Below, piece after piece: positions 453-25,880 of a stretch of 34,458 nt of DNA. The stretch's first letter is position 1; the number at the start of each line of letters is the position of its first letter. The notes beneath the pieces were generated by a model. The model saw only the letters and a list, made by a program, of their open reading frames with translations, was not told where the DNA came from and ran no database searches. Position numbers and translations under genes: made by a program. This DNA comes from Chromera velia. Taxonomy: Eukaryota > Sar > Chromeraceae. The stretch covers positions 1-34,458 of the forward strand of contig JAHBMJ010000670.1 of NCBI GenBank assembly GCA_018398765.1, written 5' to 3'.

Positions 453-3029
453 CTAGGAAAGCCGGTGCCAGAGATCATCAATTTTTCTTCTATTTGAACA
501 ACCCTCTGCCAGACAAAACACCTCTCCCGGACAGTTGGCCCCCCCCGTCAGACCCTTCCGATTTAGTGTCAATGCCCTTAGGAGTAGCTCAATCTTCTCA
601 CATAAGGCATTTCTCGGCAGACAAGACATCCGTACCTTGAGGCCATTCTTTGAAGACAAAAGAAATAGAGAAGAACATGAAGAAGACAGAAGAGCTCTCT
701 ATAGTCCTGATAAAGAGGTAGACAGGGGAAAGTTGCCCCTTTCTTCCCTGTCTCCCCTTTTCATGCATTCCATTCCCTAGGCATCCTTAATTTTGGCAGA
801 AACAAACAAATTCCCCTTCGGGGCCCGTCTTTCTGAGCTCCGGACAGGGAGAAACGTCAAAAAGTCAAGGCCTGCCCATCTGAACAGACCATTGACGGCT
901 CGTCTTTGCTTTTGCCCCACTGGTCCCTTCCATGTATTCAAAAGAGCCTGAGGAATACGGAGATGCGAACGGCTAAGTGCAATCCAGAATGAAGCAAAAC
1001 GAGCACACAAGAGCGCGTCAGCAGACATTAAATTAACAGACAAAAGAGAGGGTACATGCAAACTCCTGACCAGAAGTCGGGCCGCCCATCGAACAAACCG
1101 GAGACGCAAGTTGTCAATCACCTCCCAGTCTCCCTGTCTTATCGGAAAGGACTCCAGGCTATAGAGTGCCACCGGCTCCCAGCATACCTTCAGCAGCTGC
1201 ATCTTTCCCCCGAGAGGTAACCCAGACAGACTTGCAGCCAGACCAATCACCGCCCCCATTGCATGCTCTGCACTGTATAGGCGTGCTTCAATCGACCGAG
1301 TCAAATCCCCTCCCTCAAACAGAAGGCAACCCAAATACTTGTACTGATCACACCAGTCTACTTCCTTCCCTTGATACAAAATCATGCCGTTACAGTCCTC
1401 ACGGTATTCACAAAGACGCAGGACCTTGGTTTTCTTTAGATTGACATTCAACCCCCACTTTCCACAATACCCCTCCAGGGTATCGAATTTTGCTTGGAAG
1501 TCGGCTGCTGAGTGTGCAAACAAGACAAGATCATCAGCGTAGCCTATACTTCCCAAACTGGCCCCAGCAAGGTGAACCCCCTCCGTTTCTTTTCCATCTC
1601 CCCGTTTTCCTTTCTGAATCTCATCATACAGGTCATTAATGAATAATAGAAAAAGTGACGAGGACAACGCATCACCTTGCTTAACCCTTGCCCCCTCTGG
1701 GAATAGAGCCGAGTCCCCATCGACTTTCGTTTTCACGCCTCTATACATTGATGTAATGATCAACAGATCTCTCTTCTCTATTCCCTCAACCTGGAGCTTT
1801 GCCAGAAGCTTCAGCCGAGGGATGGAGTCAAATACCTTTGAGAAGTCGACAAATCTGCCCAGGAGCCTCTTCTTGCCTCTTTTGCATTCCTGTACCAAGC
1901 CTACCACTGCTCCGATCCCCTCTCTTGTGCCCACCCCTTTCCTAAACCCAATCTGTCTGTCATCAAAACGAGCTTGCTGATGGATTCTATCATCCATAAG
2001 GAGACCAAAGAGCTTTACAAGGGGGTTAACGACATGGACTGGACGCTAATCATTCGGCTGTGGCGAAGGGGGACCTTTTGGGACGGGTACAATTCTCAAC
2101 AAATTCCAGTTATCAGGCCAACATGCATATGCATGCATTAAATTAAAGAAAACAAACAAAAGGAAGCGAAAGACGGGAGAGTGACAAAAGCAAAGGTCGA
2201 GTTGTTGAGGAGAGATACCATCGAGCCCTGCCGCTTTCTTTCTATTCATTCCTTTCAGATGATCAGTCATCTGCTTATACGAGAAAATGAATTGCTTCGG
2301 GGGCTCCGGCTCTGGATTAGGCTCTGGCAATTCTTCGCCCTCCCTAAAAACCCGTGCCCAATGGTTTGAGAAGTCTTTTACCCCAGGGCCTGGTCTCAGA
2401 CCGTCTTTCAACAACTTTCTCCTTTCTTTCCAAAGGAAGAGGGGGTCATTAAGCAAATGTGTCTTCGCTTTTTCAGTTTCCGCTCTCTCATATCTCTTCC
2501 TTTTCTGCTGGAAGATCTCTCTCTTTTTCTTTAAGATGTCTTCCACCCTTTCCTGCTTTAACTCTCTCTCTACCCCACTTGCACAGTCCTCAACTTCTTT
2601 CCTTACTTTCTTTAGGCATTCCTGCAGCTCTTTACATTCCTCATCCCACTACCCTTCCTTCTCTCTAAACAACGTTTTGAAGGTAGGAGGCTGTTGCTTC
2701 TCTGTCGCTTTCGCTATTACTTCCTTCATCGGCCCAACCAAAACCCGACACCAGGCTGTGGCCAAGGCTTTCACCCGGTCTTTCTTATCTTGAGGGCTCA
2801 CTGGGGAGGAGGTCAAAGAAGAGGGTAAAAAAGCTTTCGAGGAGGGTGGGAAAGAAGACACAGGAAGGGGTGGGGGAAGGGAAGGCTCTTCAAATGGTTC
2901 AACTTCTCTATGATGCTCCCAGAGTCCCTGCCATGTCTCTCCCACCAGCTCTCTTGCTGCTGCCGCTATTGGCAGCAAATCCTTATCTTTCACCGCTGCC
3001 TTTCTGATAGATTTGTAAAGCGGGGGGCA
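453..3029 (-). pseudogene. LINE reverse transcriptase region, with in-frame stops
   Basis: This part of the retroelement copies its RNA into DNA. After a lysine/glutamate-rich linker (about 2650-2450) come the RT signatures: KAAGLDGI (about 2240), motif A with FVDFSKVFD (Asp at 1845-1847), motif B as QGDALSSSLF, the catalytic YADD (1541-1530) and the following WGLNVNLKKTKV. All catalytic aspartates are present. Stops in the same frame: TAG at 2649-2651, 2046-2048, 777-779, 699-701 and 453-455. The 2046 stop falls just before RPV, where RT relatives usually have an aromatic residue. The 2649 stop falls just before WDEEC, where related linkers often have paired tryptophans. The true C-terminus may be at 777 or at 453; a Cys-rich stretch (NCPGEVFCLAEGC) lies in the downstream extension. 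Confidence 0.88.
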
Positions 3030-4292
3030 CTACTGCAGGGATGGGGTATCCGTCCGCTTTCCCACAGCCTCAAGCGAAGAAGAGAGGAGAGAAAAACAGA
3101 TAGATGCATGGTCATAATCGGAGCCAATCAGTCCATCAAAAGCGATTTCCCAGTCCGTGCAAGAGGAGAGAAGGAAAGGGTCAACCAATGCATAATCGAC
3201 AACGGATGCCTCTTTTTTCGTGTTCTTTGATTTACAGGTACAAGCACCCGAAAAGCGGAAGTCTTTGCCCCCACACTTCCCTTGCAGACCATTCAGGATA
3301 AGTAGGTTGCTTTCACTGCAAAGACGTACCAATTCACGGCCCATAGGGTCGACTGACTGCTTGTATTCTGAATGCCGGATGAAAGAGGGAGCCGACTCGT
3401 CAGAGCCGGTAGATTCGTCCTGTTTGAACAGTTACTCACGATTCCATTCGAGACCTTCTAGACAGACCACTTTCGGCTCTCCCAGGGGGACAGAGCACAG
3501 GGAATTAGACAGGATCTCTTTTGTGCCATCTTTCTTATGATTCGACCAACCCCCTGGCAAATATACCCCAAACACATGCAGTTTTCTACCCGACGAGTGG
3601 ATGGCCACCCTGGCGATGCTTGGCCCTACTAGCTCAAACTCTGGTTTGAGTTCCCCCCAACAGTCTGATTTAATCAAAATGCATACGCCTCTAGACCGGA
3701 TTTCTTTTTCTGTATAAGCGGAATGGACTTTTGTCTTTCTCCTTCTCCATTCCCTATATGACCAATTTACTCCTTTCTAACCCTCTAGTTCTAGATCGCA
3801 GGACAGGTGCTGTGTTTCGACCAGAACCACAATATCTGCATCCGTTTCAGTAAGCCATGAACGAATGTCTCCATTTTTTATCTTCCGCTGCAATCCTCCC
3901 ACATTGATGTAGGCAAAGCGCAGACGGTCCCGTGGGTGAGACACCGTCAAGTCCTGGTAGCAAACATTCCCTCGCTTCTTGAACTTGCCTCTTCTCACCT
4001 TCCAATACTCTCTCACGGCTTTCTCTATGATTATTCTCTCATCCTCCGACCTTTCTTTCATCAAGTCTATTTCTTTTACCCATTCGAGATCAGACTCAGG
4101 AGAGCGCCTGATTTTAAACCATCTCTCACCACCGTACAACCTTTTATGCCCTAATACAAGTAGAGGAGGAGAAGAAGAAAAAGAAGAAGAAGAAGAAGAG
4201 GAGGAGGGGGAGGAGGAGGAGAAGAAGAATCCAAAAAAGAAAAAAAAGAAGAAGAGGACGATTTGGGAGGAGCATGTAAGGCAGCAGAGCAA
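3030..4292 (-). pseudogene. LINE endonuclease region, with in-frame stops
   Basis: The stretch beginning LRFAYINVGGLQ, followed by DIRSWLTETDADIVVLVETQ, is the start of an exonuclease-endonuclease-phosphatase fold domain, which nicks target DNA for non-LTR elements. The Asn of INVGGL and the Glu of VETQ are conserved. Further on are GVYLPGG, VVDYALVD and SDYDHASI, matching the Tyr, Asp and terminal SDH signatures. The usual GDFN motif is degenerate (CLEGLEWN). Stops in the same frame: TAG at 3777-3779, TAA at 3432-3434 and TAG at 3030-3032. No indel disrupts the frame, and it continues directly into the RT. The N-terminal side begins in a poly-Phe/poly-Ser stretch that overlaps the serine-rich frame. 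Confidence 0.85.
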
Positions 4293-4979
4293 AAGGAAGA
4301 AGAATCATCCACAATATCACGATCTCTCTTTCGTTTCTTTCTCCTCCTTCTCTTGTTGCGTGGGACGAGGAGTGTCAAGGCTGGCACAAAAGAGGAAGGT
4401 CGATAAATAGGATGGAGATCGCCCCGCGGGGAAGAGGACTTAGAGTTAGAAAGGCGTGGCGATCCAGAAAAAAAGGACGGAAGGCCCTGTCCCCTCGAGC
4501 GAGAAAGCTCGTTAGATGATGGCGAAGGCTGTGAAAGCAAAACTTCACTCGAGCTGCGATTCAGTGCAAGATCAGATCCTCCGTCGAATCCCAGCTCACT
4601 CTCATCATAAAGAAACAACGAGGAAGAGGAAGAAGACGAAAGATGCGAAGATGCAGAGAGAAAAGGTTTTTCAGCCATAGCAGATCCAGAAAGAGGAGAA
4701 AAAGAGGAGAGAGAAAGAGAGTTCACAGGATTTTGAACCTGTATGCATGCATTCAATGGGTCGATCAGGCCGGAATAGGGGAGGGGTCCAGCTGGATGGC
4801 CCCCCTTCTTCTTAGCATAACCTGACAAATCTCGCGTGGCCCTATTTCCGTTAATCCCTCCCCCCCTTCCTTCTTTCCCCCCACTGCCTGCCGCCGAGGA
4901 AGAAGAAGAAGAAGAACAAGAAGAGGAAGAAGAAGAAGAGGAAGAAGACGGAGAAGAAGAAAAAGAAGAAGAAGAAGAA

Positions 4980-5026
<47 letters not shown>

Positions 5027-5074
5027 AGAAGAAGAAGAAGAAGAAGAAGAAGAAAAAGAAGAAGAAGGATCCAT
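4151..5074 (-). CDS. Serine-rich N-terminal frame of the LINE (ORF1-like)
   Basis: A 307-codon open frame starts MDPSSSF and opens with about 35 nearly uninterrupted serines encoded by a TCT/TCC microsatellite. Unique sequence follows (residues about 60-245) with the basic cluster NKRRRRKKRKRDRD, a plausible nuclear localisation or RNA-binding patch. A second Ser/Pro/Leu low-complexity stretch ends the frame. No zinc knuckle or RRM is recognisable. The endonuclease lies downstream in the -1 register, and both frames are open together over 4151-4292. The product could be a separate ORF1 protein or the N-terminus of one polyprotein. Unlike the downstream frame it carries no stop codons. Translation is unproven. 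Confidence 0.5.
4157..4260. repeat. GAA/GAG-rich imperfect microsatellite
   Basis: This purine-rich tract (pyrimidine-rich on the minus strand) contains GAA and GAG runs and two long A runs at 4233-4248. It lies at the junction of the two LINE frames, so length changes here would alter their register. Confidence 0.85.
4896..5069. repeat. (GAA)n microsatellite
   Basis: About 170 bp are nearly pure GAA/GAG units on the plus strand. On the minus strand they encode the N-terminal polyserine of the LINE frame. The overlapping plus-strand polyglutamate and minus-strand polyleucine frames are by-products of the repeat. Confidence 0.9.
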
Positions 5075-5466: not shown

Positions 5467-7956
5467 TTATTTTGTGTCTTGAACTAACGTACAAAAAACC
5501 TCCACAATCTTCTGTCTCCGCTCTTTCATCTCCTCAAGTCTGGAACATTCTTTATCCTTTGCAGCACTCTCGATAAGCGCTTTCTGCACAGTCAGTATTC
5601 TTCTATCGATTTCCGACCATCGCTGTCGCTCTGACAGAGCACCATCAGCGCCAATTCGAGACCTAGGTCCGGACCCTGCAATTCTACCCGATTCGTGGAG
5701 CACTCGCTGGATCTCGCCCAGCCGGGAGGACAGGGCATGGCGACTCGCTTTTTGGGTTGGCAGGGGCTGTGACTCATATGTCTGGCTTGGCAGGGGCTCT
5801 GCGTCTTCCTTTCGGTTCGGCAGGAGCTCTGCGTTGCCCTGGTTCAGGTGGGTCTCCGTGGCCACTGTTGAGGCTCTGGAGAGGAGAGAGAGGACAGAGT
5901 CGGGACCGTTCGAGCTCTCTCTCGTGCAAACAGCCACTGCCCCCCCTCTCTCAGAGTCCGCAGCCGTGCTTTGAGAGACGCCTTGTACGGCCACGTGCCA
6001 CGGTGCCAGTAGCCAATCAAGCACACTTTCAGTTGCACCAGAGAGAGGGCCTTTAAGGGACATTTCCTCTTCAAAGCTCACGGCGGCACTCACAGCCCAT
6101 TTCCCTCCCACACAGTCACACGAGTGACCCTGCACTGCTGCAGAGACCCCGTCCTGCCAAGTGCCTGTCGAAGCAGCAGAGTCCCCCTCAAAGGCCAACC
6201 CGGCAGCCCACGCAAACGCGTGTCCGAAGGGACTCCCGAGAGGGACCAGCTCGAAGAGGTCTGCTGAGCAGACGCTGTCTTCCACAAGCACGGGGGGGAG
6301 GGGGAGGGACGGGAAACCCAAAAACGAAAACTCCCCCTCCACGTAATCCCACGGAGTCCACCCCTCAGACTCAGAAACAATCTCCTCAGAATCACTCTGG
6401 AGAGATTCGTCTTCGTTGTTCCCCCCTCCTTCCACTGAGACTCCCCCCGTCCCATCCCCCGCTTCTACTGAAACTTCTTCTGCCTCTTCCCCTACCTCTA
6501 CTGAAACTCCTCCCCTCACTTTCTGGGGAGACCCCTCAGCAGTCCTCTCTGCCCTTCCCTCACCCTCACATGCACTCTCTGCACACGCGGCAAGTCCACC
6601 CGAGCTGCAGCAGCTCTGCAGGTGCTGGCTCAACAGAGTCTGCCTCAGAGGCGGGTTCTCAGGCTCTGTCTCTGACTTGGACTCGGCACTACAGTCGGAC
6701 GGCCTGTGACTGGGTTGCCTTCGTCTAACCTCTCTCTCTTCTTTAAGCTCGGAAGGAAAATAAACGAGACGGGGGGTCCGGTGGAGGCCTGCTCCTTCCC
6801 AGAGGACCAGACTGGCGTGTCTGTCTGGGGTTGCTCTGCAGTCCTTGTCGTGGGGGCCCGGGAACGCGTGGCGTGAGATGAAGTGGAGACTCGACAGCGC
6901 AATCTGGAAGGCACTGGGGGGGGTGCCCGTCTGCTCTGTGAGATGTACAGAAACGGCCCTGGCAAGGTGGCTGAGTGCGGTGCTATTCATCTTCGGAGGC
7001 GGGCAGCATTCATCCACCCATTGGACGCAGGTGCGGTCTCGGAGGGAGTGCAGACACATGTCTTCTGGGTCCTCTAGTCTGTCTAACAGAAGAGAACCAA
7101 CGAAAAATTCCGCTGCGAGAGCCCAGAGCTTCAGGAGACGGATTGCCCCCCTCACCTCTTGAGGCTGCTGCAGAAGCGCGTGACTTCTCTCGAGGTTCAA
7201 AGAGAAAGTCAGGAGCCACTGCGACCCTTTTCTTCTGAACATACTGCATCCCCTCCCCGTGCCGTCTCCCTCGTTTGAAACCTGATCTAGAACGTCCACT
7301 ACGGCAGGTAGGAGATCGACACTTATCTCCTCAGTGCCACTAAGGGTCCTTACAACGGCTCCCAATCTGGAATTATGAGGGTAGACGGTCGGGCTGAGAC
7401 ACAGAGAAACAGAATGATGAAATTCCCCGTCTCGTTGTCTCAGTCTGTCCTGCACTGCCATGGCGATGTCGTCTGCCACGGGGTTCACGAAGACTTTTTC
7501 GAAAAGCCTCTGGGGACACTCCCCGATCAGAGTGGGGTGCAGCGCCTCAATGGTGAAGCACAGAGCGACATCAAGGTCAGAGAGCGCCCAGGGGATCTGA
7601 GTTCCGTTGCCTGCCGACCCAATGACGCACGCCTCTTTGAATCGCGCCGTGGCGATTATCTGGCGCTTGTAGTCAGACGCCGGGGCCAGCACACAGCCAG
7701 CAATCGTTACGTAATTTTGAGAGGAAGAGCTCGAAGGATCAAGCACAGATGCGTTCACAGGAACGGAAAGTCCCATGAGACTCTCGTTCAGGCATACCTT
7801 CACATCATGTGCAGACTGAAGGGAGGACTGGAGGCGCACATCGAGTTTCGAAAGCAGCTTCTTCGTCTCCTCATCCCATCGAGACGCGAAGTTGCAGCAC
7901 GAAGACAGAGCAACGTCCCTCAAATAAGGCCGAAAGAGCCGGAGGAGCTGAACCAT
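5467..7956 (-). CDS. OAS/CD-NTase-like nucleotidyltransferase, 829 aa
   Basis: This predicted enzyme of the polymerase-beta-like nucleotidyltransferase superfamily has a core at residues about 80-360. It contains GSAGNGT (113-119), SDLD (126-129; 7581-7570) with the first two metal-binding aspartates, and SVDLLPA with the third aspartate (residue 214; 7317-7315). The helix RLLKLWA follows (273-279). The combination GSxGxGT ... SDxD ... VDxxPA ... RLxKxW resembles 2'-5'-oligoadenylate synthetase and related CD-NTases more than TUTase or poly(A) polymerase, where the GT and the Pro-Ala are not expected. OAS-type enzymes make 2'-5' oligoadenylate from ATP on sensing RNA; product and activator here are unknown. 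Residues about 410-550 are acidic low complexity with three VSVE repeats; about 750-829 are a charged coiled coil. I start at the ATG at 7956 (context ATGG): the open frame extends 28 codons upstream without an ATG. No introns. The stop is TAA. Confidence 0.72.
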   Translation of the reverse strand: MVQLLRLFRPYLRDVALSSCCNFASRWDEETKKLLSKLDVRLQSSLQSAHDVKVCLNESLMGLSVPVNASVLDPSSSSSQNYVTIAGCVLAPASDYKRQIIATARFKEACVIGSAGNGTQIPWALSDLDVALCFTIEALHPTLIGECPQRLFEKVFVNPVADDIAMAVQDRLRQRDGEFHHSVSLCLSPTVYPHNSRLGAVVRTLSGTEEISVDLLPAVVDVLDQVSNEGDGTGRGCSMFRRKGSQWLLTFSLNLERSHALLQQPQEVRGAIRLLKLWALAAEFFVGSLLLDRLEDPEDMCLHSLRDRTCVQWVDECCPPPKMNSTALSHLARAVSVHLTEQTGTPPSAFQIALSSLHFISRHAFPGPHDKDCRATPDRHASLVLWEGAGLHRTPRLVYFPSELKEEREVRRRQPSHRPSDCSAESKSETEPENPPLRQTLLSQHLQSCCSSGGLAACAESACEGEGRAERTAEGSPQKVRGGVSVEVGEEAEEVSVEAGDGTGGVSVEGGGNNEDESLQSDSEEIVSESEGWTPWDYVEGEFSFLGFPSLPLPPVLVEDSVCSADLFELVPLGSPFGHAFAWAAGLAFEGDSAASTGTWQDGVSAAVQGHSCDCVGGKWAVSAAVSFEEEMSLKGPLSGATESVLDWLLAPWHVAVQGVSQSTAADSERGGAVAVCTRESSNGPDSVLSLLSRASTVATETHLNQGNAELLPNRKEDAEPLPSQTYESQPLPTQKASRHALSSRLGEIQRVLHESGRIAGSGPRSRIGADGALSERQRWSEIDRRILTVQKALIESAAKDKECSRLEEMKERRQKIVEVFCTLVQDTK

Positions 7957-9544
7957 GCTTGACCGCTTAAAAAAAAGACATCGCAGAAAGGAGACGGCAA
8001 CCGTCACTTGAACCGTGATTTGTACCCCAAACGGCAGCACAAGAAGTCGTATTCCAAACCGGGCACCGACGTTCTAATTTTCCTCCTGCCTCTGGGAATG
8101 TGACAGATACCACACAAGATGATGCATGGTTATCTCTGCCGCACCTCCGACGGCCATTAATAATTAATCTAGAAGTTCAGGCCATAATTGGGCCTCTGCT
8201 CCTTCAAGCCGTTTGGTCGGTGCGGCGCGAAGCACCCCGCCCACCACTCCAAAACTGGCCGGCCATGCACATCTCCCCCCGCCACATAAACCCTCCAACC
8301 TCAACCATCCGTTTGCATGCTGATACCCTACACTGCGAAGTTCCAGCGACCCCCGACGCCGTTTCTCACCGATTTGCCTGAAATTGCCTCAGTCACTCAG
8401 AAGAATCTGTTCGTCTCGATGTCAAAACAGAAATAAAGAGAAATTGAGAGGCCGCATCTTATAACTCTTTGTGGATTGCTTAGTACAAATAAAACCATTT
8501 TAGTTGTTTTTCTATGTTTTGGTATATGATCAGTTATCATTAGTTTTAATTACTTTTAATCAGTATTGATCAGTATTTTCTACTGTTTTCTAACTTTGGC
8601 AGTTCAATTTGATGTATAAGGTAGCATAAGGTCTAACCTTGTAAATTAGCGTTCATCGGAGGTAATCGGAAGCCTCCTCTGACTACCTCTAAACAGTCAT
8701 GCAGTCTATATTTTTCTCAGTGGTTTGTTTAAAGAGTAGAAACTTAGTTAAAAATATACTTCTCAAACTAGTTTTAGCCTCTTAGATATGTTTATATGAT
8801 ATTCGTGTCTTTGGTTTACTGAGATCATTTCTCAGAGCGTTGTTCATAACATACATATGCAAGACGCACTGTTTCATGATGTCACACAATACGACGCTGC
8901 TGCCATTGCCACGTATGCATTACCATGCAGCTTAAGTTTCATCAATTAAGCGAAACTTGATTCACAGGTGGCAAGCAAGATGGAAAGCTGTGTTTCAGCT
9001 TGTGAAACTTCTTTCAAGCAAACACCGCACACATTGATTCAAGACGCGCGACAGACAGTTGCAAGAAACTTGAATCAATTTTTGAATTAATTTTGTAGCT
9101 GCAGCAGGACGGAAAATAGCTCCATCCGGTCACCATTTACCCACCAAAAACACCGTAGACGCAAAGTGAAGTTCAAAACTGCATCGAATTCGAAGACGAA
9201 ATGACGTCGAATCCAAAATTGCGACAGGCGGAACAAGAAACGGAAAGAGAGATCGGAGCCCCACACCCCGGCGCTATCATACAATGAATCATACCCACGT
9301 GGTAATGCACGACGACACGCAAACAGCTCTCTAAAATTCCAAAAGGATCAAAGCGGCTCACTGATGCACCGTGGGTGCAATCAGGATCGGTCTCTTCAAG
9401 AAGAAGTACATGCAAAGACGGGAGGGAGAGATCACCTGATGCCCCCAGACGGAGACGAGCGAGTACACTCACCGACCGAACGATCGAACCAAAAAGTCCG
9501 ATAAAGAAGAAGAAGAAGACGGAAAGAGAGGATGCATGCGCATG
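7957..9544. other. Intergenic region between two minus-strand genes
   Basis: About 1.6 kb separates the start of the nucleotidyltransferase from the stop of the MFS gene. It should hold the nucleotidyltransferase promoter. The minus strand just before the ATG has a pyrimidine run ending AAG (7964-7978), which could be a 3' splice site of a 5'-UTR intron, but this is uncertain. From about 8450 the DNA becomes AT-rich. Around 8933-9085 several GAAACTTGA-like words recur, including one short hairpin (AGTTTC ... GAAACT). No ORF here looks coding. Confidence 0.5.
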
Positions 9545-11551
9545 TCAAACCACTCCAACCATGGTCGATGCCTCCTCATCTGTCAACTTCTTTTTGACTC
9601 CTTCCTGCCCTGCCTCACCCTCAGCACTTCCACTTCCGTTTGCTCTCTCGGCCCTCTGCCTTTCTTCTGCAGCGAGTCGTCTCTGTTCTTTCAGATCGTC
9701 CTCTTTCAAAGGAACAATCCACAGAAGGGGGATGAAAATCGCCACTGCAAGAAAGTAGAGTCCCGCAGTCACCCCGAAAGCAAACCGATAATCCTGGAAG
9801 TCGGCAAGCCAACCCCCGAGGAAGGCACTGCCAGACCATGTCATTCCAGTCAAACTCTCCACGGCGTTCCACTTACCCCTGTGTTTCGATGGTGTGTAGT
9901 CCATCAAGATGGACTTGTCCAACGGATTCGTACCGTTCGACAGCCCACCCCTCATGAGGAAGATGGCAACAAGAAGGGGAAGCGAGCGCACGTACGCTAG
10001 GCCAATGAGGCAGCTTGCCCCAAGGATATTTGAAACGACGGAGACGGGGACGCGACCAAATCGTTTGGCCGCTAGCTCGGCTGCTTTGATGAAGAGGGCA
10101 ACGGAAAGCGGATAGGTAAAGAAAAGGAGAGAGCTTTGTTTCGGAGTGAAACTGTAATCATTCTGAAAGAAGAGGGGAAAGAACTTCACTGTCATGCCTG
10201 CACCAATACAAGCAACAAAATTCGATGTAGCAACAAGGAAGGGAACGCACTGATCCCATCCCGTCAGCACCACCACTTCATTCCCTCCCCTCCCTCTCCC
10301 CCTTCGACCCCATATCCCAGCACGCGTTCGTCTCCTCCCCCTACTCCCTCCCCCCTCGCGCACCCCGGACCCTGTCGGTGTCGAAGCAGACGCTGCGGAT
10401 GCGGAGAGATGTTGCTGTTGTCCGTGCTGCTGTCCTTCTGTTTCAGTGGACAGACTCTCAACCCGTCTGGCCTCTGCACGAAGCAGAGAGACCCCCGGGT
10501 GCTCTGCGCTGGGGCCTGCCGCTTCCCCCTCTCCCCCCCTGGTCTTTCCATTGTCCTTCTGCAGGAAAGGGGCACCTGAGGGCGATGCGTCCCCGTAGAA
10601 GGGGGACGCGGAATCGTCGGTTTCCTCTTCTCGAGGGGAACCGTCGGATGTGGCCGCACAGCCAGAGAGAGACCGCGCGTCGGTCGGAGAAACGGCAGAC
10701 GCAGACGCGGTTACAGTCCCCCAGTGGGTGCTGCTGTTTCCCGACACGTGCATTGAGGCCGCACTAGGCAGCCTCGTTACGTTATCGTCACCCACCGCCC
10801 CATCCCCGAAAGATCGCATTTCCCCGTTCGCCCTTCTACTCCCCTCCGCTTCCTCTTCTCCTTCTGCAGGAGAAAAGGGCTGTCGGTAAAGGAATAAGAG
10901 ACTGCACGCGACGGGACCGAACAACAGATTCCCCAAGATCAGGGGGATGACAATCAGGTCGATGTCCCACTTATCGCCCCAAATACAAAAAAACAGATAC
11001 ATCAACCCGGGACCCACAGCGACGAACGCTGATTCTGTCAGTCCCTTTCGAGCAAACCACTTTGCCCTTGCCCCTTCCTCCACACTGTCTGCAAAGATTG
11101 CACCTGTGGAAGAGAAAAGAAGTTCCCAAAACAAACCCCAAAGCACCAGCGCGAGACGAATCCCAAATATCGAATGGAAGTATAAAACCGTAACGAATGC
11201 ACCGATGGACACGAAACCTAGAGCCCCAGCGACTTTGCAAAGGAGCACTCGGTCATAGCGGTCGACGAGCAAGGCAAGGGGAAGGGCTGAGACTAAACTG
11301 ACAAGCCCGAGAATACTCTCCGTGATTCCGACGGCTTCGTTCTTCCCATGGGAAAGAAGAAACACGTACGAATCAAATATCGCCCCTTGGGCCACCGCGA
11401 GAAGAGTGGTAATGAGTGCCGACACGAAGAGCGTCAGCTTGAGATTGTTCTTCCTGTTCTTCGCAAATCTTTCCTCCTCATCTTGCCTTTCAGTGGAGGC
11501 ACGAGGAAGAAGAACGACCTGCCTGGAATTCGAGGGAGTTGAATCTTCCAT
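9545..11551 (-). CDS. MFS transporter with long central loop, 668 aa
   Basis: A predicted multi-pass membrane carrier. Hydrophobic helices occupy residues about 37-222 (first six) and 430-615 (last six), split by a hydrophilic Ser/Glu/Gly-rich loop of about 200 residues that ends in a basic patch (GRRRTRAGIWGRRGRGRG). The loop between helices 2 and 3 has the MFS motif-A-like DRYDR (97-101), with an equivalent KRFGR in the second half. A conserved-looking segment MDYTPSKHRGKWNAVESL lies at 550-567. The C-terminal 50 residues are charged and probably cytosolic. The open frame extends 28 codons upstream without ATG, so the ATG at 11551 (context ATGG) is chosen. The stop is TGA, with no introns. 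The substrate cannot be told. The long loop is unusual and could be regulatory. Confidence 0.82.
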   Translation of the reverse strand: MEDSTPSNSRQVVLLPRASTERQDEEERFAKNRKNNLKLTLFVSALITTLLAVAQGAIFDSYVFLLSHGKNEAVGITESILGLVSLVSALPLALLVDRYDRVLLCKVAGALGFVSIGAFVTVLYFHSIFGIRLALVLWGLFWELLFSSTGAIFADSVEEGARAKWFARKGLTESAFVAVGPGLMYLFFCIWGDKWDIDLIVIPLILGNLLFGPVACSLLFLYRQPFSPAEGEEEAEGSRRANGEMRSFGDGAVGDDNVTRLPSAASMHVSGNSSTHWGTVTASASAVSPTDARSLSGCAATSDGSPREEETDDSASPFYGDASPSGAPFLQKDNGKTRGGEGEAAGPSAEHPGVSLLRAEARRVESLSTETEGQQHGQQQHLSASAASASTPTGSGVREGGGSRGRRRTRAGIWGRRGRGRGGNEVVVLTGWDQCVPFLVATSNFVACIGAGMTVKFFPLFFQNDYSFTPKQSSLLFFTYPLSVALFIKAAELAAKRFGRVPVSVVSNILGASCLIGLAYVRSLPLLVAIFLMRGGLSNGTNPLDKSILMDYTPSKHRGKWNAVESLTGMTWSGSAFLGGWLADFQDYRFAFGVTAGLYFLAVAIFIPLLWIVPLKEDDLKEQRRLAAEERQRAERANGSGSAEGEAGQEGVKKKLTDEEASTMVGVV

Positions 11552-11970
11552 CCTGAGAATGCGAGGAGGACGAAGTCTGCCTGCGTCTCCTCTCAAGAGA
11601 TCACAGCCTGAGTTCTGAATATCAATTCTATTCAAATCACTGCACGACGTTCTTTCTTGCGGGAAGAAAGAAGGAGAACAGGATTGTCCGATCGTGCGGA
11701 TTCAACTGAGTCAAGTTCAAGCTTCAGGAAAGCAAGAATCTAAGAGTTCCTGAATGCAAAGCAGGGTCAGACCGAGGACGACCCTGAAGCTTGCGATCGC
11801 CGATCAAACGACCAGGCCAGACGACAGACAGGAGCAGGAAGACCACAACGCAGCAAACAGGAACCACGGGCAAAGGTCTCTCAGCTTTGTCTCTTCATTT
11901 TCCTTGGAACGACCTTGATCGAGATCAAGCTTTTGATCTGCATGTCTTCGATCCGCACGCGTGCTGCATC

Positions 11971-17305: not shown

Positions 17306-17936
17306 GTTCAATTGACGGTGACGATTTTCCAGCCCTCTCGTGACACCTCTGCGTGTTCGTGCTTCGCAAAGCTTTCTCGTTTCTCCTCGGTTCCGCAAGT
17401 GAATTCGACACTGGACTGTTCCACTGTGTGGGCAGAGGCTTGAGACTGTTGACTGTCTTCATGCTCTTCGTTTGATTTTGCTTCCGTGCTTCCTTCTTTC
17501 TTTCCTTTCCTTTCGTCTTGTTTGTGCAGGAGAAAACTGTCGACTTCATCACGGGGCTGCAGAAAACGATGGCGGACCTCCAGGAAATGGTACATGAAAG
17601 AGAAGGGGGGGCGGAGGGAGAATTGGGTAGAGGCACATGTAGGCTGGACGACACTGTTCTTTCACGGTCAAGCGATAAGCAAAGACGCCACCATGATGCA
17701 CAGTGTCCTTCCTTCCTTCCTTCCTGCCGTCCTTCTGCGCACCTAAGAAAAGATTGGCAGGCTTTCTCGGTCTTGCATCTCTCTTGCTTTGCATTTGTCC
17801 TTCAATCGTTATGAAATTTTGGGGAATGCACACTGGGAGTTGCCTCGTTGCCATCTGCCTTGTGTGTGTCGTCCCGATCAGTCAGTGAGGGGCTTTGCGT
17901 CCTTCCTTCGTCCCCGCCCCCTCCCTGCAGTTTGTA

Positions 17937-17985
<49 letters not shown>

Positions 17986-20411
17986 ATCGACACCTGCTTT
18001 CCCAACGATCAAGTCTTCGAGAAAGCCCACACCGACGCCTTGGAAAACACCATCAACTATGACCAGAAGTGCGCACGGTTGCTGGCTGTGTACTGCAACC
18101 AGTGTATGAACAACTCGAATGAGTTCGGGAAGAAGTCGGAAGAGGAGGTCGGCGCCTTCGTCAACGACATCCTCCGAGTCTTCAAGCACGTCAAAGACAA
18201 GGATATCTTCCACAACACCTACAAGGTTCGTTCCTTCCTCCGTTTTTTCCAACCTGGGGGGGGATCCTCTGCTTGTGCGGAGGAGTCAACGCCAACCACA
18301 CAAGGGGAGAGAGTCAGACAGACAAAAAGGAGGAAAAGAAAAAGGGCTTTCAAAATGCAAAACCTTGAGGAGCCACTGCAGTAAGGAAGGAGCACCTGGA
18401 TGGACTCATCATGCGTTGACTGCCCGGCACACCTCTCCTTCGTCTTCAGGCCCTGTCCACGAGATTGGTTTGGGTCTGCAGAAGGATCAATCACCTTCTA
18501 GCTAAAGACGATAAGAATGGAGGTGATCAAGATTGTTGCCATTCATGCCTGCTTACTGACTGTTTCTTTTCTTGCAGGAATCCATGACAAAGCGAGTGCT
18601 CGAGAAGAAGATCTACAACGAATTCGCAGAGAGGCTCATGGTTGAGAAAATTGTTGAATTGGTCCGTCTATCTGTCTGTCAATGAGTCAAGGGAAGGAAA
18701 GGAACGAAGAAAGAAAGAACACCCTGTCTGTCCGTCGGTTCTTTTGTGTTTCTTTCTTTCTCTTTTGTCTATTGGGCCAATTGCGAGAATGAGAGAAAAG
18801 AAGGAAACATATTGTCCGTCCGTCTGTCCGTCCGTCCGTCTGTCTGTCTGTCTGTCTGTTTGTCTCCTGTTTTCCTGTCTTGTTTATCATGTGAAGACTG
18901 CTTTTCTGCTGAGAGTGGACTCAATACACAGGCATCGACGCCTTATTGCTCCGTTGTTGGTGAGCATTTCTCGTACCGTCGGTACTATTTTCACTCCAGA
19001 GAATGTAAAGGCGTTTGCTCTCTTTCATTTGCAGTCTATCAATATGTTTTTTTGACTTTTCCGCCAGTCACTGGCCTGTACTCCGCTCGTCTTCAGAAAG
19101 ACTTGGGACAAGCCTTCAGGAAGACCGACCCACCCCCCTGTGTACTCCCATAAATCGACTCGGAGTGACTCTTGAGAGCCCCCTCATCCTCTCCTGTCAA
19201 CAGGTTGTATTCTCTCTTTCTTTCTCTTTCTCTTTCTGTTGACGCATTTCTCATCCCGTCCCTCTCTCTCTTCTTGCTCGTTGCATTGTTGCAGGTTGGA
19301 AAGGGTCACTGCAGTAACCTCTATGTGATCCTGGAAGACCTGGAGGCAGTCAAGAACGAGCACAGAGAGTTCATGGGAACCGACCATGCGGTTGGTTGGT
19401 CATCGGCATTCCTTCTCGCTCTTTCCACTTCGCCCCCACTCGCGGTTTTCCTCCCCCATTCCGTCATTCTTCACTGCATTCGGTGCTCCTTACGTTCTTT
19501 TCACCCCCCCGCGTCGCATCAACATTTCGTCTATCCGCCCTGCATGCATGCTCAAAGCTTTTGGAAGTGCGTTCTCTTCTCTTCTTCATCATCATGAAGG
19601 TCCCAGCGAGGTGGGCAGGTCCGCGTCGGTGCGTTTGAAGTGTTGGTGCCAAACTTTTGATTTCTTTCTTTCTGTGTACATGCAGCGCCAGCTTCCCAGG
19701 AACCAAGATATAGCAGTGACGGTTCTGAAGAGCAACTCGTGGCCTCAGAAGCCCGATGCGTGGGAACTCCATCCCGGCCCTGCCTTCGGACCCCTTATGG
19801 AGGTGCGTGGGTATGTTCGTTTGTGTCTTCTTTCTTTATTTTGTGAAATCGAATCGACGCAGCACAAAAACAAACAAGAAAGGGGTGAAGGATCGACGGC
19901 GAATTTCTCCATAGAATGATTTGAAGCCTCGCATCCTTAGATTTATTTGATCACGTTCCTTTTCCTTTCTATCACACGAGACTTTCCGACTAGTGCATCT
20001 CCGTCTCTCTTGTTTCCGTTTTCCGCTTCCTATCGATGTGTCCTGTCGTCCTTTCAGCTTCTGCTTCAATGTGACTTTCTGTATCTGAAGGGGACACGCA
20101 GGAGGGTGCACGGCACGTTGAAGAGAAAGTGAAGGACTGCGCACGTTGGTTCCCTAGTTCTTGCGGTGCTCTTTCTGTCCGCATCAGTGTGTTTGTTTGT
20201 GTCTGCAGATGGATTAGGTTTGCCACTGTCAACCGATGTGTTTGAACGAATGAGGATTGACGCAGGCCTACAGCGCCTTCTACAAAGCCAAGTACAACGG
20301 CAGGAAACTGGTCTGGCTGTTCAACCACGTCAGTAAGTGAGTGAGGGAGTCAGAGGTGCTGACCTCACCACCCGACGCAGCGATCGTGTTTTCATTCTCT
20401 CTCTCTCTCGG

Positions 20412-20447
<36 letters not shown>

Positions 20448-20961
20448 GCACCCCGCGGAATCCGAATTTCACAACTGGGGGGAAGATTTATATCAGGCAA
20501 TTCTTTCCAACTGATGGACGATTCTCTGGGAACAGCCTGGGGTTGCAGAAGAAGTGAAGGGAATTCTCTGTATGTCGCCTTTTTTCTGGCTGGCGAGCTG
20601 GCCGCCTGGCTGGGTGCGAATAAGAGAGAGGACCTGACAGAAAGATTGCTTATACAAGTCCTTCATGAGAGACAGGGAAACCGACAGGCAGACGCTCAGA
20701 AGGCAAGAATAATGAAAGAAGGAGACAAGAGAATCAGGGAAAAGAGGGACAGAACCTCTTTTCTTTCTTGCTCTTCATTCTGTGTCTGCAGGGTTTTGCA
20801 GAGCTTTTCTGCACAAGGAATGCCTACCCGAAGAGGGACTTCAAAGTTTTGGTCCCCACCTACCTCGCCATGCTCCTCTATTGCTTCAACTCCCAGGGGT
20901 CGGTTAGCTTGCTTCCCTCTTGGTTTGTTTGTTGGTGTGCGTCTCTCCGCCACCCCTTCTC

Positions 20962-21009
<48 letters not shown>

Positions 21010-21056
21010 TGTCCGTACGTGCGTGTATCTGTGTCTTTTCGTGCGTGCGTGCGTAC

Positions 21057-21092
<36 letters not shown>

Positions 21093-21107
21093 CTATGTGT
21101 CTGTGTG

Positions 21108-21139
<32 letters not shown>

Positions 21140-21535
21140 TGTGTGTGCTCCAAGGCACACGGGTTCGCTGATTCTTTTTTGCCCCCTCTGTCTCCTTCTC
21201 TGTCTCGCTGTGGTGGTAGATGGAGCTAGAAAGCTTTCAGCGGCCACGTATCTGCATATCGACACGAAACATTTGCGTGCTCAATGAAAGTGCGTACAGA
21301 GTCGAAGTGTTCATATGCGTTGTGCTTCCACTTTTTGTGTGCAGAGTCGACGAGCTGAGTTTGGCTGCACTTTGTGAAGCGACTGGGATCGGCGAGACAG
21401 AGGCAATCAGACTCCTCGTCTCCCTCACTCAGATGGAAAACCAAAACCTGCTGGTGAAGGACAGGCAGGTACGCTGCGAGAGCGAAAAGCAGGGAGAGAG
21501 GTGGAGGCTACGCAGGTTTATTTGTGTGTATGCGT

Positions 21536-21567
<32 letters not shown>

Positions 21568-23440
21568 GTGGGACGAGAGAGACAAAGAGAGAGGACAAGA
21601 AAGTGAGAAAGCAAAGGAAGGCTTTTTCTTTGGGTCTGCGTTGCTGCAGCTGCTCGAGACGAACCATTTATGCGTCGTACGTTTTCAGGCTGTCAACGAA
21701 TGATCAAAAGAGATCCGAACGTTTCGCAGATCTGCCTGATCTGAAGGTGATCTTCTAGTCCTTTTGCAGGTCTCTGGAATCGTTCAAATGGGTGGAGCAT
21801 GCATGAATGAGATTGTCTGAATGCATGACATTGAGGGGTCACATGATCTATCTATTAATACATCAATGTGTGCACGTTGGCGTGCAGGGAGCGGGGTGTG
21901 ACGGAAGTACGAAGTTCAAGGTTAACAGCCAATTCCTTGCCCCGAGGAAGTTCTTTGACATCAAACTGGGCAAGGTAGGCCGGCCTGCTCCAATGATTTT
22001 TGCGCAGCCTGTTGGCTCACTGCCATTTCAGCTTCCTTTTGTTTCCTCTGGAAGCGCATTTTCTTTCAAACCCGCATCTCTCTTTACTTTGTCCGCTTTC
22101 ATGTGTGTGCGAAGAGGCCGGCACGCAAGTGTGCGCCTGAATGGCTGTGTCCCTTCCCCCTCTGTTTTCATTCCATCCCGCTGTGTGCAGCAAAAGGCGG
22201 GCCCCTCGGAAGCCCCGAAAGACGTGAAGGCCGAATTGGGGGCCGCTGACATGGCGAGCAGAAAGCAGGTCCTCGAGGCCGCCATTGTGAAGGTCATGAA
22301 GGTGAGTGCCTCAAGAAGGTAAAAGGCCCATATTTGTGTTTCTGTGGTAAAAGAAGGGTCGTTCTGAGGCTGCCGGAGGAACGGTCGTGCACTCGCGGTA
22401 AAGTTCCTGCTGTCTTATGTCCTTATAGAGTGGGGCTTGCATGTATCGTGTGAGTTCCTTTATCTCATCAATGGAGTGAATGAAAAAGTCGCCAGTTTTT
22501 TTTTTTTTAAGCTGCCGTTTGAATGTTGCCACGTATAGTTGGGTTCTCTTTATTTCTTCTTTGTCCGTAAGCTCGTCTTTACCGAGTTCAGTTTCTGAAA
22601 TCTGGATCCAACATGCAGTTAGTTTTTTCAACTGCATTCATGAATTGTATTGAAAAGTCGATCGTCCGGTGCGTGCAGGAGAGGAGAGCGGTGTCCTACA
22701 ACGATCTGTTCGCGGAACTGGTAAAGAACGTGGATCTGTTCAAGCCCAACTCCCAGATGATCAAGACCTCCATCCACACCCTGATGGAACGGGAGTACAT
22801 CCAGAGAGACGACCAAGATATGTTCGTCGCTTTCCTTCAATTGCATATTTATTTATGTGTCGGGTGGAAGTGCGGGCGGCGGGGTGAGGGTGGATTGCGG
22901 GTGATTGTATGGTTTCGTTGGGCGGGGGTTGTTCTGCCCCTCTCGGGATTGCGCTGTTATTTTTCTGATTTGCTCTTCATATCTTGCTGGCTGACTGGCC
23001 GACCATCCGTCATCAAGAGAGTGTAAGTGTAGTGTTTGATTGAGAGTAGGGAAAACCGATGAGCCACTCTGAAGGCCGACCTGTCCTACGCAGATTATCT
23101 TTTTGTCTTTCTTAGATGATTTTTTTTTGTTTGTCGTCAGTTTCACCTGCTCCCGCAGCGAGGAAAGAAAAAGAGATACACATGCATGCATGCTCACAAA
23201 CCGGCAAGCATGTTCGAACGCCCTTCGGAATGCACCATCCCCCCCCCATGTCTAGCGGGGGGCGATGGGTCTCATGAGATGTCTGCAGAAAGAAGCTGAT
23301 GAAGGCAGCTTGCAAATGCAAGAGTAAATGCTCTGTTTGTCTAAAGTGCATTCTCAGATGAATGGATGGATCGATGGATGAATGAATGGTTGGATGGATG
23401 GATGAGCTTGTGCAGGTCGAGGTACATCTACATTCCCTGA
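12530..23440 (+). CDS. Cullin (CUL1-like), 783 aa, 22 exons
   Basis: Scaffold of a Cullin-RING ubiquitin ligase. Exons: 12530-12749, 13084-13218, 13584-13680, 14017-14080, 14394-14460, 14631-14704, 15194-15264, 15667-15812, 16392-16456, 17076-17231, 17530-17589, 17986-18225, 18578-18661, 19295-19390, 19686-19802, 20266-20328, 20792-20898, 21345-21468, 21888-21974, 22191-22301, 22679-22821, 23416-23440. They total 2352 nt, all GT-AG and phase-consistent, ending in TGA. Residues about 20-385 are the helical cullin repeats (for example NLYDHLKVKLQEALIAEIDRERDG is cut only by introns). About 390-690 are the cullin homology domain (DKDIFHNTYK, VTVLKSNSWP, GRKLVWL). About 700-783 are the neddylation winged helix, with AAIVKVMK placing the NEDD8-acceptor lysine at residue 728, and the C-terminus SRYIYIP. 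Length and spacing match CUL1-type cullins (about 776 aa). Paralogue assignment is tentative. In-frame ATGs at 12530 and 12548 are both possible starts. Confidence 0.93.
16670..16840. repeat. (TGTC)n and a ~60-bp tandem duplication in cullin intron 9
   Basis: A TGTC tetranucleotide tract (about 16673-16700) is followed by two similar ~60-bp copies. Each contains TCATGAA/ACATGAA, a GGGAGAAGAAG-type purine run and TATAGTCTGTCT. Intron 9 spans 16457-17075 and has no supported exon. Confidence 0.7.
17243..17300. repeat. (TC)n(TG)n microsatellite in cullin intron 10
   Basis: A TC run passes directly into a TG run inside intron 10 (17232-17529). Such compound tracts recur in several introns of this gene. 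Confidence 0.9.
17936..17982. repeat. (TG)n tract abutting the exon 12 acceptor
   Basis: About 20 TG units run straight into the CAG acceptor at 17983-17985, so the dinucleotide repeat replaces the usual pyrimidine tract. A conventional-looking acceptor (CCCTCCCTGCAG) ends at 17930, before the repeat. Confidence 0.9.
18811..18866. repeat. (TCCG/TCTG)n microsatellite in cullin intron 13
   Basis: TCCG tetranucleotides grade into TCTG tetranucleotides within intron 13 (18662-19294). Confidence 0.85.
20396..20443. repeat. (TC)n microsatellite in cullin intron 16
   Basis: A nearly pure TC run lies in intron 16 (20329-20791). The long plus-strand ORF crossing this intron and the next is an artefact of repeats and exon 17 read in the wrong frame. 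Confidence 0.85.
20963..21150. repeat. Alternating (TC)n/(TG)n cluster in cullin intron 17
   Basis: Three successive TC-then-TG blocks occupy most of the middle of intron 17 (20899-21344). The repeated block structure suggests duplication of a compound microsatellite. Confidence 0.9.
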
Positions 23441-24314: not shown

Positions 24315-25239
24315 AAACCTGACTGTTCCTCTTTCTTTCTCTGCTAAGTCGACAGCATGACTACACCTCTTTCATTCTCTGCTCAGACAGCAGTATGACC
24401 GTATCTCTTTCATTCTCTGCTCATGAGCAGCGTGACTGCATGACACGATCCCTCTCTCTCTGCATGTCTCACTCTCTGCCCAGGAGCGGCACCTCTACTT
24501 TTCTTTCACTCTCTACCGAGGCAGGCTTAGGCAGCAGCGTGACTGTGCCTCTTTCATTCTTTACTTAGGCAACAGCATGATTCCATGGCTCTCACTTTCT
24601 GCTCAGTTAGTAACATGACAGTCACTCCACCTCTCCAGATTTATTCTTTGCTGAGGCAACAGCATGACTGCACCTCTTTCATTCTCCACTCAGACAGCAG
24701 TATGACCACATCTCTTTCATTCTCTGCTCACGAGCAGCCGGACTGCGTCCCTCTCACTCCATCTCACTCTCTGCCCATGAGCGGTATGTCCACATTTCTT
24801 TTAGTCTCTGACGAGGCAGCAGTATGACTATACCTCTTTCGTTCTTTGCACAGTCAGCTGCATGTCTCTATCGCTCTCACTCTCTGGCAGTGCTCAGTCA
24901 ATATCAGGACTACACCTCTTTTACTTTCTGCTCAGGCAGCAGCATGACTGCACCTCTCTTATTCTCGGCTCAGGCCGCAGCGTGGCTCACTCTAGATCAC
25001 TCTCTGCTCTATCAGCAGCATGACTGCACCTCTTTCATTCTTTATTTAAGCTACAGCATGTCTGCATCTCTTTCATTCTCTGCTTAGTCAGCGGTATGAC
25101 TACACCTCTTTCATTCTTTCCTCAGTCAATAGTATGACTACACCTCTTCCATTCTTTGCTGAGGCAACAGCACGACTACACCTCTTTTATTCTGAGTTCA
25201 GACAACAGTATGACTGCATCTCTCTCATTCTCGGTTCAG
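24315..25239. repeat. Diverged ~38-bp tandem (satellite-like) array, left part
   Basis: Some two dozen diverged copies of a roughly 38-bp unit are present. Typical words in order are CAGCATGACT, (G/A)CACCTCTTTCATTCT and CTGCTCAGGCAG. Unit length varies, with insertions, so the array is old. It is not coding and, lacking conserved repeats with unique spacers, is not a CRISPR. It resumes at 25697 after a foldback insertion. Confidence 0.8.
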
Positions 25240-25694
25240 CGTATGCCGGGGGCGAGTAAGGTGCTTTTTGCCCACCCCTCTGCATAGGAGACCAGCGCTT
25301 TTCCGCAAAAAACTCATTCTCATAATTGGTAAGGAGTTAGAAGCTGAAAATTTGTGTAAGAAGACGTTATAATGATAGAAAAAGAACTATGGAACAGATT
25401 TTTCATATCATTTCTAGAAACATAGGCTACCATACAAATTTTGTAAGTTTTATACGGTTTTTCTTACTATTCAAAACCGTTAAAAAATAGCCTCAAAATC
25501 AAAAAATTTGTATGACAGCCTATGTTTTTAGAAATGATATAAAAAATTTGTTTCATAGTTCTTTTTCTATCGTTACAACGTCTTCTTACACCAAGTTTCA
25601 GCTTCTAACTCCTTACCAATTATGAGAACGAGTTTTTTGCGGAAATATGCCGCTTTAGGGGGGCAAAAAGCACCCTACTCACCCCTGGCATACG
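25240..25694. mobile_element. 455-bp foldback (palindromic) element
   Basis: The two halves are near-complete reverse complements, from CGTATGCC at the left end to GGCATACG at the right, with the centre near 25465 containing a smaller inverted pair (ACGGTTTT / AAAACCGT). It interrupts the ~38-bp satellite. Removing it and one copy of AG (25238-25239 / 25695-25696) restores the satellite's usual word order, so a 2-bp AG duplication is likely. It has no ORF. Transcribed, it would form a hairpin of more than 200 bp. Confidence 0.82.
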
Positions 25695-25696
25695 AG

Positions 25697-25880
25697 GTCG
25701 CAGCGTGGTTCCATCTATCTTACTCTCTGCTCTGTCAGCAACATGATTGCACCTCTTTTATTCTATAGTACTCAGTCAGCAGCATGTCTCCATCTCTTCC
25801 ACTCTCTACTCAGTCAGCAACATGACTGTACCTCTTTCATTCTTTGCTCAGGCAGCGGCATGTCTTTCATGCTTCGGACA
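25697..25880. repeat. Diverged ~38-bp tandem array, right part
   Basis: This continues the satellite on the far side of the foldback element, with the same CAGCATG, CTCTTTCATTCT and GCTCAGGCAG words. It ends near 25880 in AT-rich sequence leading to the transposon's right end. Confidence 0.75.

Follow-up and report, generated by a model that had tools for sequence, protein, structure and literature searches.

The 34,458-nucleotide stretch of Chromera velia DNA that we analysed (hereafter, the window) is an entire contig, C669, of the genome assembly. On its minus strand lies a large open reading frame whose product is probably a protein of the CD-NTase superfamily and a working nucleotidyltransferase, with a core that resembles the bacterial and animal enzymes behind antiviral nucleotide signalling. 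The 829-codon frame at 5467-7956 is real: the other five frames across the same interval are interrupted by 15-37 stops each, and, given the base composition, a run of 829 open codons would arise by chance with a probability of ~1e-14. The gene and its recognisable parts are as follows.

5467..7956, minus strand: 829-aa open reading frame, ATG at 7956 to stop at 5467, apparently a single exon
6862..7899, minus strand: predicted nucleotidyltransferase core, residues ~20-365 (profile match proper, residues 109-282)
7600..7620, minus strand: GSAGNGT, residues 113-119, the GS or P-loop motif, from motif and alignment
7570..7581, minus strand: SDLD, residues 126-129, with D127 and D129 the presumed metal ligands 1 and 2
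7306..7317, minus strand: DLLP, residues 214-217 (within VDLLPA), with D214 the presumed third metal ligand
7123..7140, minus strand: RLLKLW, residues 273-278, equivalent of the LIRL helix (AIRL in this protein)
6985..7017, minus strand: VDECCPPPKMN region, residues 314-324, weakly aligned with D-P-x-x-x-N in bacterial CD-NTases
6409..6507, minus strand: three VSVE-type tail repeats, residues 484-516, starting at 484, 495 and 506
5743..5835, minus strand: three LP[NST][RQ][KT] repeats, residues ~708-738, starting at 712, 722 and 732
5470..5649, minus strand: charged C-terminal 60 residues, a coiled coil being unsupported by the heptad test

The active site and the tail

The motifs GSAGNGT, SDLD, VDLLPA and RLLKLW are present in the order given by an earlier sequence-only reading of this DNA, and the three aspartates D127, D129 and D214 are, as it maintained, all intact. 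Its description of their spacing as OAS-like was close to the mark without being exact. When compared with human OAS1 (positions G62, D75, D77 and D148 from the portion of PMC6071104 consulted; W215 from the present analysis), the distance from G113 to D127 is 14 residues versus 13, that from D129 to D214 is 85 versus 71, and that from D214 to W278 is 64 versus 67; the second of these differences therefore indicates an insert ahead of the third aspartate. Taken together as one pattern, the motifs have a single occurrence in the six-frame translation of the window and none in 20,000 shuffled versions of the protein or in the 1,200 frames of 200 simulated windows, counts that measure rarity only, the pattern having been composed after the protein had been seen.

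The tail was correctly described by the same reading as acidic and repeat-bearing: it holds two short triple repeats, and residues 401-829 have a mild acid excess (D+E 16%, K+R 9%). The terminal coiled coil that was also proposed is not supported: in a crude test, 913 of 2,000 shuffles did at least as well as the last 60 residues in their best heptad a/d score. At the other end of the 829-aa protein, the N-terminus MVQLLRLFRPYLRDVALSSCCNFASRW is presequence-like in appearance. A run of T residues followed by AAG stands immediately 5' of the ATG (7890-7970, minus strand) as a possible splice acceptor, and an additional upstream exon is therefore possible.

Kinship of the core

At the level of profiles the core is related to the CD-NTases. 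In hhalign comparisons residues 20-385 matched a profile of 18 bacterial CD-NTase rows with a probability of 72% and P 3.4e-5, a score attained by none of 150 shuffles, and residues 109-282 were in register from the GS motif through RLLKLW; the full-length protein gave P 9.5e-5. Adding six OAS rows to this profile yielded P 9.8e-6 over residues 209-284 only. A six-row OAS profile gave P 0.0032 from the third aspartate to the helix, and a five-row TUTase profile gave P 0.013 for the GS/SDLD stretch only, with 1 of 150 shuffles scoring as high; among the three families, it was the bacterial CD-NTase profile that scored best. The scale of the test is set by other queries on the CD-NTase profile: human OAS1 (6e-12), an OAS-like protein from the same genome, L091 (8e-8), OAS2 domain 1 (1.8e-6), NF45 (1.4e-5), human cGAS (0.033), four queries from the TUTase family (0.0018-0.082) and a pair of unrelated proteins from the window (0.23 and 0.68). 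The test therefore picks up OAS and NF45 as relatives and fails to detect cGAS.

An unforced MAFFT alignment with seven CD-NTases (A6; four bacterial proteins and three viral-contig loci), to which the core is 15-19% identical, placed G, S, T, D, D, D, P, R, K and W among its 14 invariant columns. It is on this alignment and the controlled profile comparison that the CD-NTase half of the earlier OAS/CD-NTase assignment stands. With the CD-NTases of bacterial CBASS systems, represented here by a short type (L006; PADLOC PDLC00803) and a CdnC type (L008; PDB 6p80), the window protein shares the order GS - DxD - DhhP - RLxKxW as well as the invariant catalytic columns of A6. It differs from them in its low identity, in its long tail and in the insert that separates SDLD from the third aspartate, and its gene is eukaryotic, with a transporter and a retroelement for neighbours and no CBASS operon. 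Neither the SMODS model (PF18144) nor the PADLOC cyclase models matched the window protein, whereas L008 scored above the SMODS cut-off, L006 fell below it at E 0.001, and both matched PADLOC cyclase models; this result lowers the case for membership in the bacterial SMODS families and not that for membership in the wider superfamily.

Pairwise comparison of residues 96-365 with 26 targets (1,000 shuffles each, two matrices) provided an uneven signal that leans toward OAS and the CD-NTases. The best of all targets was human OAS1 (z 5.0 and 5.6; residues 155-278 or 174-289), and lower scores were obtained with L006 (4.2 and 3.6), L008 (3.8 and 1.7, with the full register from GS to helix under the first matrix), OAS2 domain 2 (2.7 and 4.4) and L091 (2.0 and 2.9). 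The remaining seven bacterial rows ranged from -0.4 to 3.1, five TUTase-family proteins from -1.3 to 2.5, and NF45 gave 0.5 and 1.2; among the controls, two unrelated window proteins gave -0.6 to 0.7 and three reversed sequences -1.1 to 1.1.

Several results weigh against the assignment to the CD-NTase superfamily. Searches of Pfam, NCBIfam, PADLOC and PDB sequences with the window protein returned no match at E<=10, a failure that, as regards Pfam, counts equally against the CD-NTase, OAS and TUTase families, and on HMMER profiles of 92, 4 and 88 sequences the core scored no better than shuffles. The pairwise match to human OAS1 excludes the GS motif; pig OAS1, a close relative of the human protein, reached just 1.8 and 3.3; and OAS2 domain 1 (-0.1 and 0.9), human cGAS (0.7 and 0.4) and the loci L050 and L080 all had z values near zero. 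The TUTase Cid1 (P 0.0013) outscored the window core when both were run against the OAS profile, and on the TUTase profile the two OAS2 domains scored P 1.1e-4 and 7.8e-4, from which it follows that part of the signal is common to the wider fold. Furthermore, 24 random six-row CD-NTase profiles gave a median P of 0.0024 (range 6.6e-6 to 0.052), so that at equal depth the CD-NTase and OAS profiles tie. In larger CdnC-like sets aligned with MAFFT, the third aspartate and RLLKLW still aligned while GS or SDLD was misplaced, SDLD in all six 33-row runs. In a tree of 31 rows and 258 columns the branch leading to the window protein measured 4.5 changes per column, and its grouping with the TUTases was not rejected (p-AU 0.505). 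Finally, a single-sequence AlphaFold model of residues 1-400 had a pLDDT of 31 and was discarded, and a second model was also poor (pLDDT 37). In view of the signal common to the wider fold and the tie at equal depth, we regard the evidence for CD-NTase superfamily membership of the core as moderate.

The same tree set the window row beside bacterial rows with weak support (59/83), did not reject a window+OAS grouping either (p-AU 0.483), and rejected none of the placements tested. The alignment behind the second AlphaFold model held only bacterial and viral-contig relatives. With this model cGAS, OAS3, GLD-2 and MiD51 tie as structural matches, and among the 50 matches listed CdnD02 occurs and CdnC does not, an absence that excludes nothing. 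A clearly better match to TUTase or MiD/Mab21 structures, which the sequence-only reading had named as the outcome that would tell against it, did not appear, the poor quality of the model making this a weak test. As for the cGAS, cGLR and Mab21 proteins, the window protein is set apart from them by the pairwise cGAS scores given above and by the lack of a match to the Mab21 Pfam model.

That the window protein is instead a member of the OAS superfamily proper (OAS1/2/3, OASL), a maker of linear 2'-5' oligoadenylates activated by double-stranded RNA that has lost its recognisable OAS1_C sequence, seems to us unlikely, despite real resemblances. It has the GS motif, the three D-box aspartates and a D214-W278 distance no more than 3 residues off that of OAS1; QQPQEVRGAIRLLKLW resembles the OAS helix, AIRLLKLW standing where OAS1 has LIRLVKHW; its strongest single pairwise score is with human OAS1; porcine OAS1 fills the top three Foldseek rows for the poor model; and other OAS-like loci exist in the same genome. 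Against this, OAS1_C (PF10421), which the consulted portion of PMC10732462 gives as the domain of the superfamily, had no match to the window protein at E<=10 in the protein scans or the genome search. Of the OAS motifs (PMC6071104, in the portion consulted, gives five), YALELLT and RPVILDPADP were not found in the protein, where the nearest stretches were equalled in 1,740 and 1,987 of 2,000 shuffles, and the exact LIRL is replaced by AIRL. The OAS profile does no better than the median six-row CD-NTase profile and is matched more strongly by Cid1, pig OAS1 scores far below human OAS1, and the match to OAS stops near RLLKLW. Ribonuc_2-5A was not found in the genome, though here the controls gave no match anywhere. 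The narrower, OAS part of the earlier family assignment is thus not supported.

A TUTase or non-canonical poly(A) polymerase, which would add nucleotides to RNA 3' ends, is a quite improbable identity for the protein. The tree tolerates it, and the missing Pfam match touches it no more than the other two families, but its profile P of 0.013, confined to the GS/SDLD stretch with five rows, compares poorly with the six-row CD-NTase median. In addition, the D-h-h-P feature at D214, common to the window protein, the CD-NTases and the active OAS rows, occurs in 17 of 18 CD-NTase rows and 3 of 6 OAS rows, and none of the five TUTase rows has it.

OAS-like loci in the genome and the predicted role of the protein

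When the whole 829-aa protein was used to search its own genome (177.8 Mb, 4040 contigs), its sole match at E<=0.001 was itself; the core as query gave two weak matches (E 0.23 and 4.9). OAS1_C exceeded its cut-off at two places, on C3577 and C3426, with no other match in the genome at E<=10. The C3426 protein, for which a PDB search gives human OAS2 at E 1.3e-10, found C3577 when used as a genome query and added C690 and C1785, so that there are at least four OAS-like loci.

G000:C3426:43999-44922: OAS-like locus L091, OAS1_C over cut-off
G000:C3577:64110-65411: OAS-like locus L090, OAS1_C over cut-off
G000:C690:29996-31720: OAS-like locus found with the C3426 protein
G000:C1785:7531-9976: OAS-like locus found with the C3426 protein

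These loci have in common with the window protein an OAS-type helix (RLLKWW, RLLKWW, RLMKWW and RLVKFW, following Q-P, Q-Q or Q-S). They differ in that two of them exceed the OAS1_C cut-off, and BLASTP of the window core against the L091 and L090 pieces reached just E 0.019 and 0.11. In the exons read, their active-site stretches are GNVGKGTAISGCASTDLV (C3426), GNVGKGTAISAKGAASAELV (C3577), GSVGKGLVTIENRDAAFV (C1785) and GTAVTGSCDAELV (C690), and at the DVLPAF site of OAS1 they have ALFPVPF (C3426), RILVAPYF (C3577), SIQLSPEY (C1785) and RIRVCPQV (C690). Provisionally, and for the exons read, none of the four appears to keep the full triad by comparison with OAS1, and with at least one triad residue lost from each they look like OAS pseudoenzymes. 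Of these five loci, unexpectedly, only that of the window carries all three aspartates.

These relatives raise the prospect that the window protein is itself a non-catalytic member of the fold, with a binding or scaffold role like that of human OASL or the NF45/NF90 family. Such proteins can be effective: in the portion of PMC6071104 consulted, a goose OASL with altered active-site residues retained antiviral activity, and human OASL is inactive yet antiviral. We consider a scaffold role highly improbable here; a sequence that has otherwise diverged very far retains the GS motif and all three aspartates, a pattern suggesting that these residues are being kept.

Further nucleotidyltransferases, CD-NTases included, may be found among the ten genome places matched by NTP_transf_2 (nine of them over the cut-off), of which the window is not one. 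SMODS matched a single place in the genome, below its cut-off (E 0.21). The searches for STING and Ribonuc_2-5A found no match in the genome, and absence is not established, given that the control genomes had none either. Outside the genome, a tblastn search of plasmids and phages with the core produced no matches, and a scan of viral contigs with the window core as query found no relative. Of five other viral-contig scans, with OAS or CD-NTase queries, three were empty and two led to L115 and L116-L117, which are bacterial-type CD-NTases. For the scan of genome contigs the query was an alignment of bacterial CD-NTases in place of the window protein, and the best 80 of its 109 relatives were kept.

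We picture the locus as a eukaryotic nuclear gene whose product is a divergent nucleotidyltransferase of the CD-NTase superfamily. Its core (residues ~20-365) would adopt a polymerase-beta-type active site, with G113-S114 as the place where the triphosphate would sit and with D127, D129 and D214 as the residues that would coordinate two metal ions. Needing no template, the enzyme would join nucleoside triphosphates into a short oligonucleotide, linear or cyclic and with 2'-5' or 3'-5' linkages, which would act as a second messenger, and the repeat-bearing tail of ~460 residues might control activity, binding or location. That the protein is a working CD-NTase-superfamily enzyme producing an oligonucleotide signal seems to us somewhat probable; the fold and catalysis are predicted, and it is by inference that we speak of a product, of a trigger, of a possible immune role and of a task for the tail. 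A bolder proposal is that it represents a eukaryotic CD-NTase lineage outside OAS, cGLR and eSMODS, too divergent for surveys based on hidden Markov models (HMMs), and the sole catalytically complete member beside at least four OAS-like pseudoenzymes, by which it may be regulated or with which it may be partnered. This we hold to be decidedly unlikely.

According to the portion of PMC10732462 consulted, OAS-like proteins are the commonest CD-NTases across eukaryotes, are present in 8 of 12 supergroups and likely date back to the last common ancestor. With such relatives known in many eukaryotes, the window protein seems to belong to a familiar kind and to be unusually divergent within it, and the earlier description of a little-described enzyme applies only to this divergent form. 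What is unusual is the divergence of its sequence, its tail and the degenerate relatives alongside it. Our literature searches turned up no report of this protein, and the word Chromera does not occur in the main text of PMC10732462, as distinct from its supplements; a search for Chromera velia together with oligoadenylate synthetase returned no papers, and no tested product of a protist OAS-like protein was found in the portions of the literature examined. A divergent protein with an apparently intact active site that is missed by the standard models would imply that HMM surveys under-count such proteins. This genome, moreover, would offer a natural contrast between one apparently active protein and several apparently dead relatives.

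The surroundings of the gene

The window is most likely nuclear eukaryotic DNA, judging from the genes that it carries. The sequence-only reading had supposed a unicellular eukaryote, algal or protist. Its eukaryotic part is supported by the cullin gene pieces on the same contig, and "algal or protist" is a step that we infer, the host being probably single-celled. The neighbouring genes are the following.

~17848-23026, plus strand: cullin gene pieces (Cullin, E 2e-13 and 4.5e-4, the latter below the cut-off), neddylation domain included (Cullin_Nedd8, E 1e-14)
9545-11635, minus strand: MFS transporter encoded in one open frame (E 2e-28) and containing a long low-complexity loop
777-1997, minus strand: reverse transcriptase (RVT_1, E 6e-24)

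Three of the five cullin pieces inspected begin with CAG, as after an intron. The reverse transcriptase is among what appear to be pieces of a non-LTR (long terminal repeat) retroelement at 777-4292 (minus strand), and the minus-strand frames at 2046-2546 and 3777-4292, which have no Pfam match, read like parts of the same element. Downstream of the stop codon of the nucleotidyltransferase-like gene, ~56 copies of GAA (4899-5067) open spurious poly-Glu, poly-Ser and poly-Leu frames. Beyond the cullin pieces, at 24320-25865, lie three arrays of a 38-base minisatellite unit that contains CTCTTTCATTCT.
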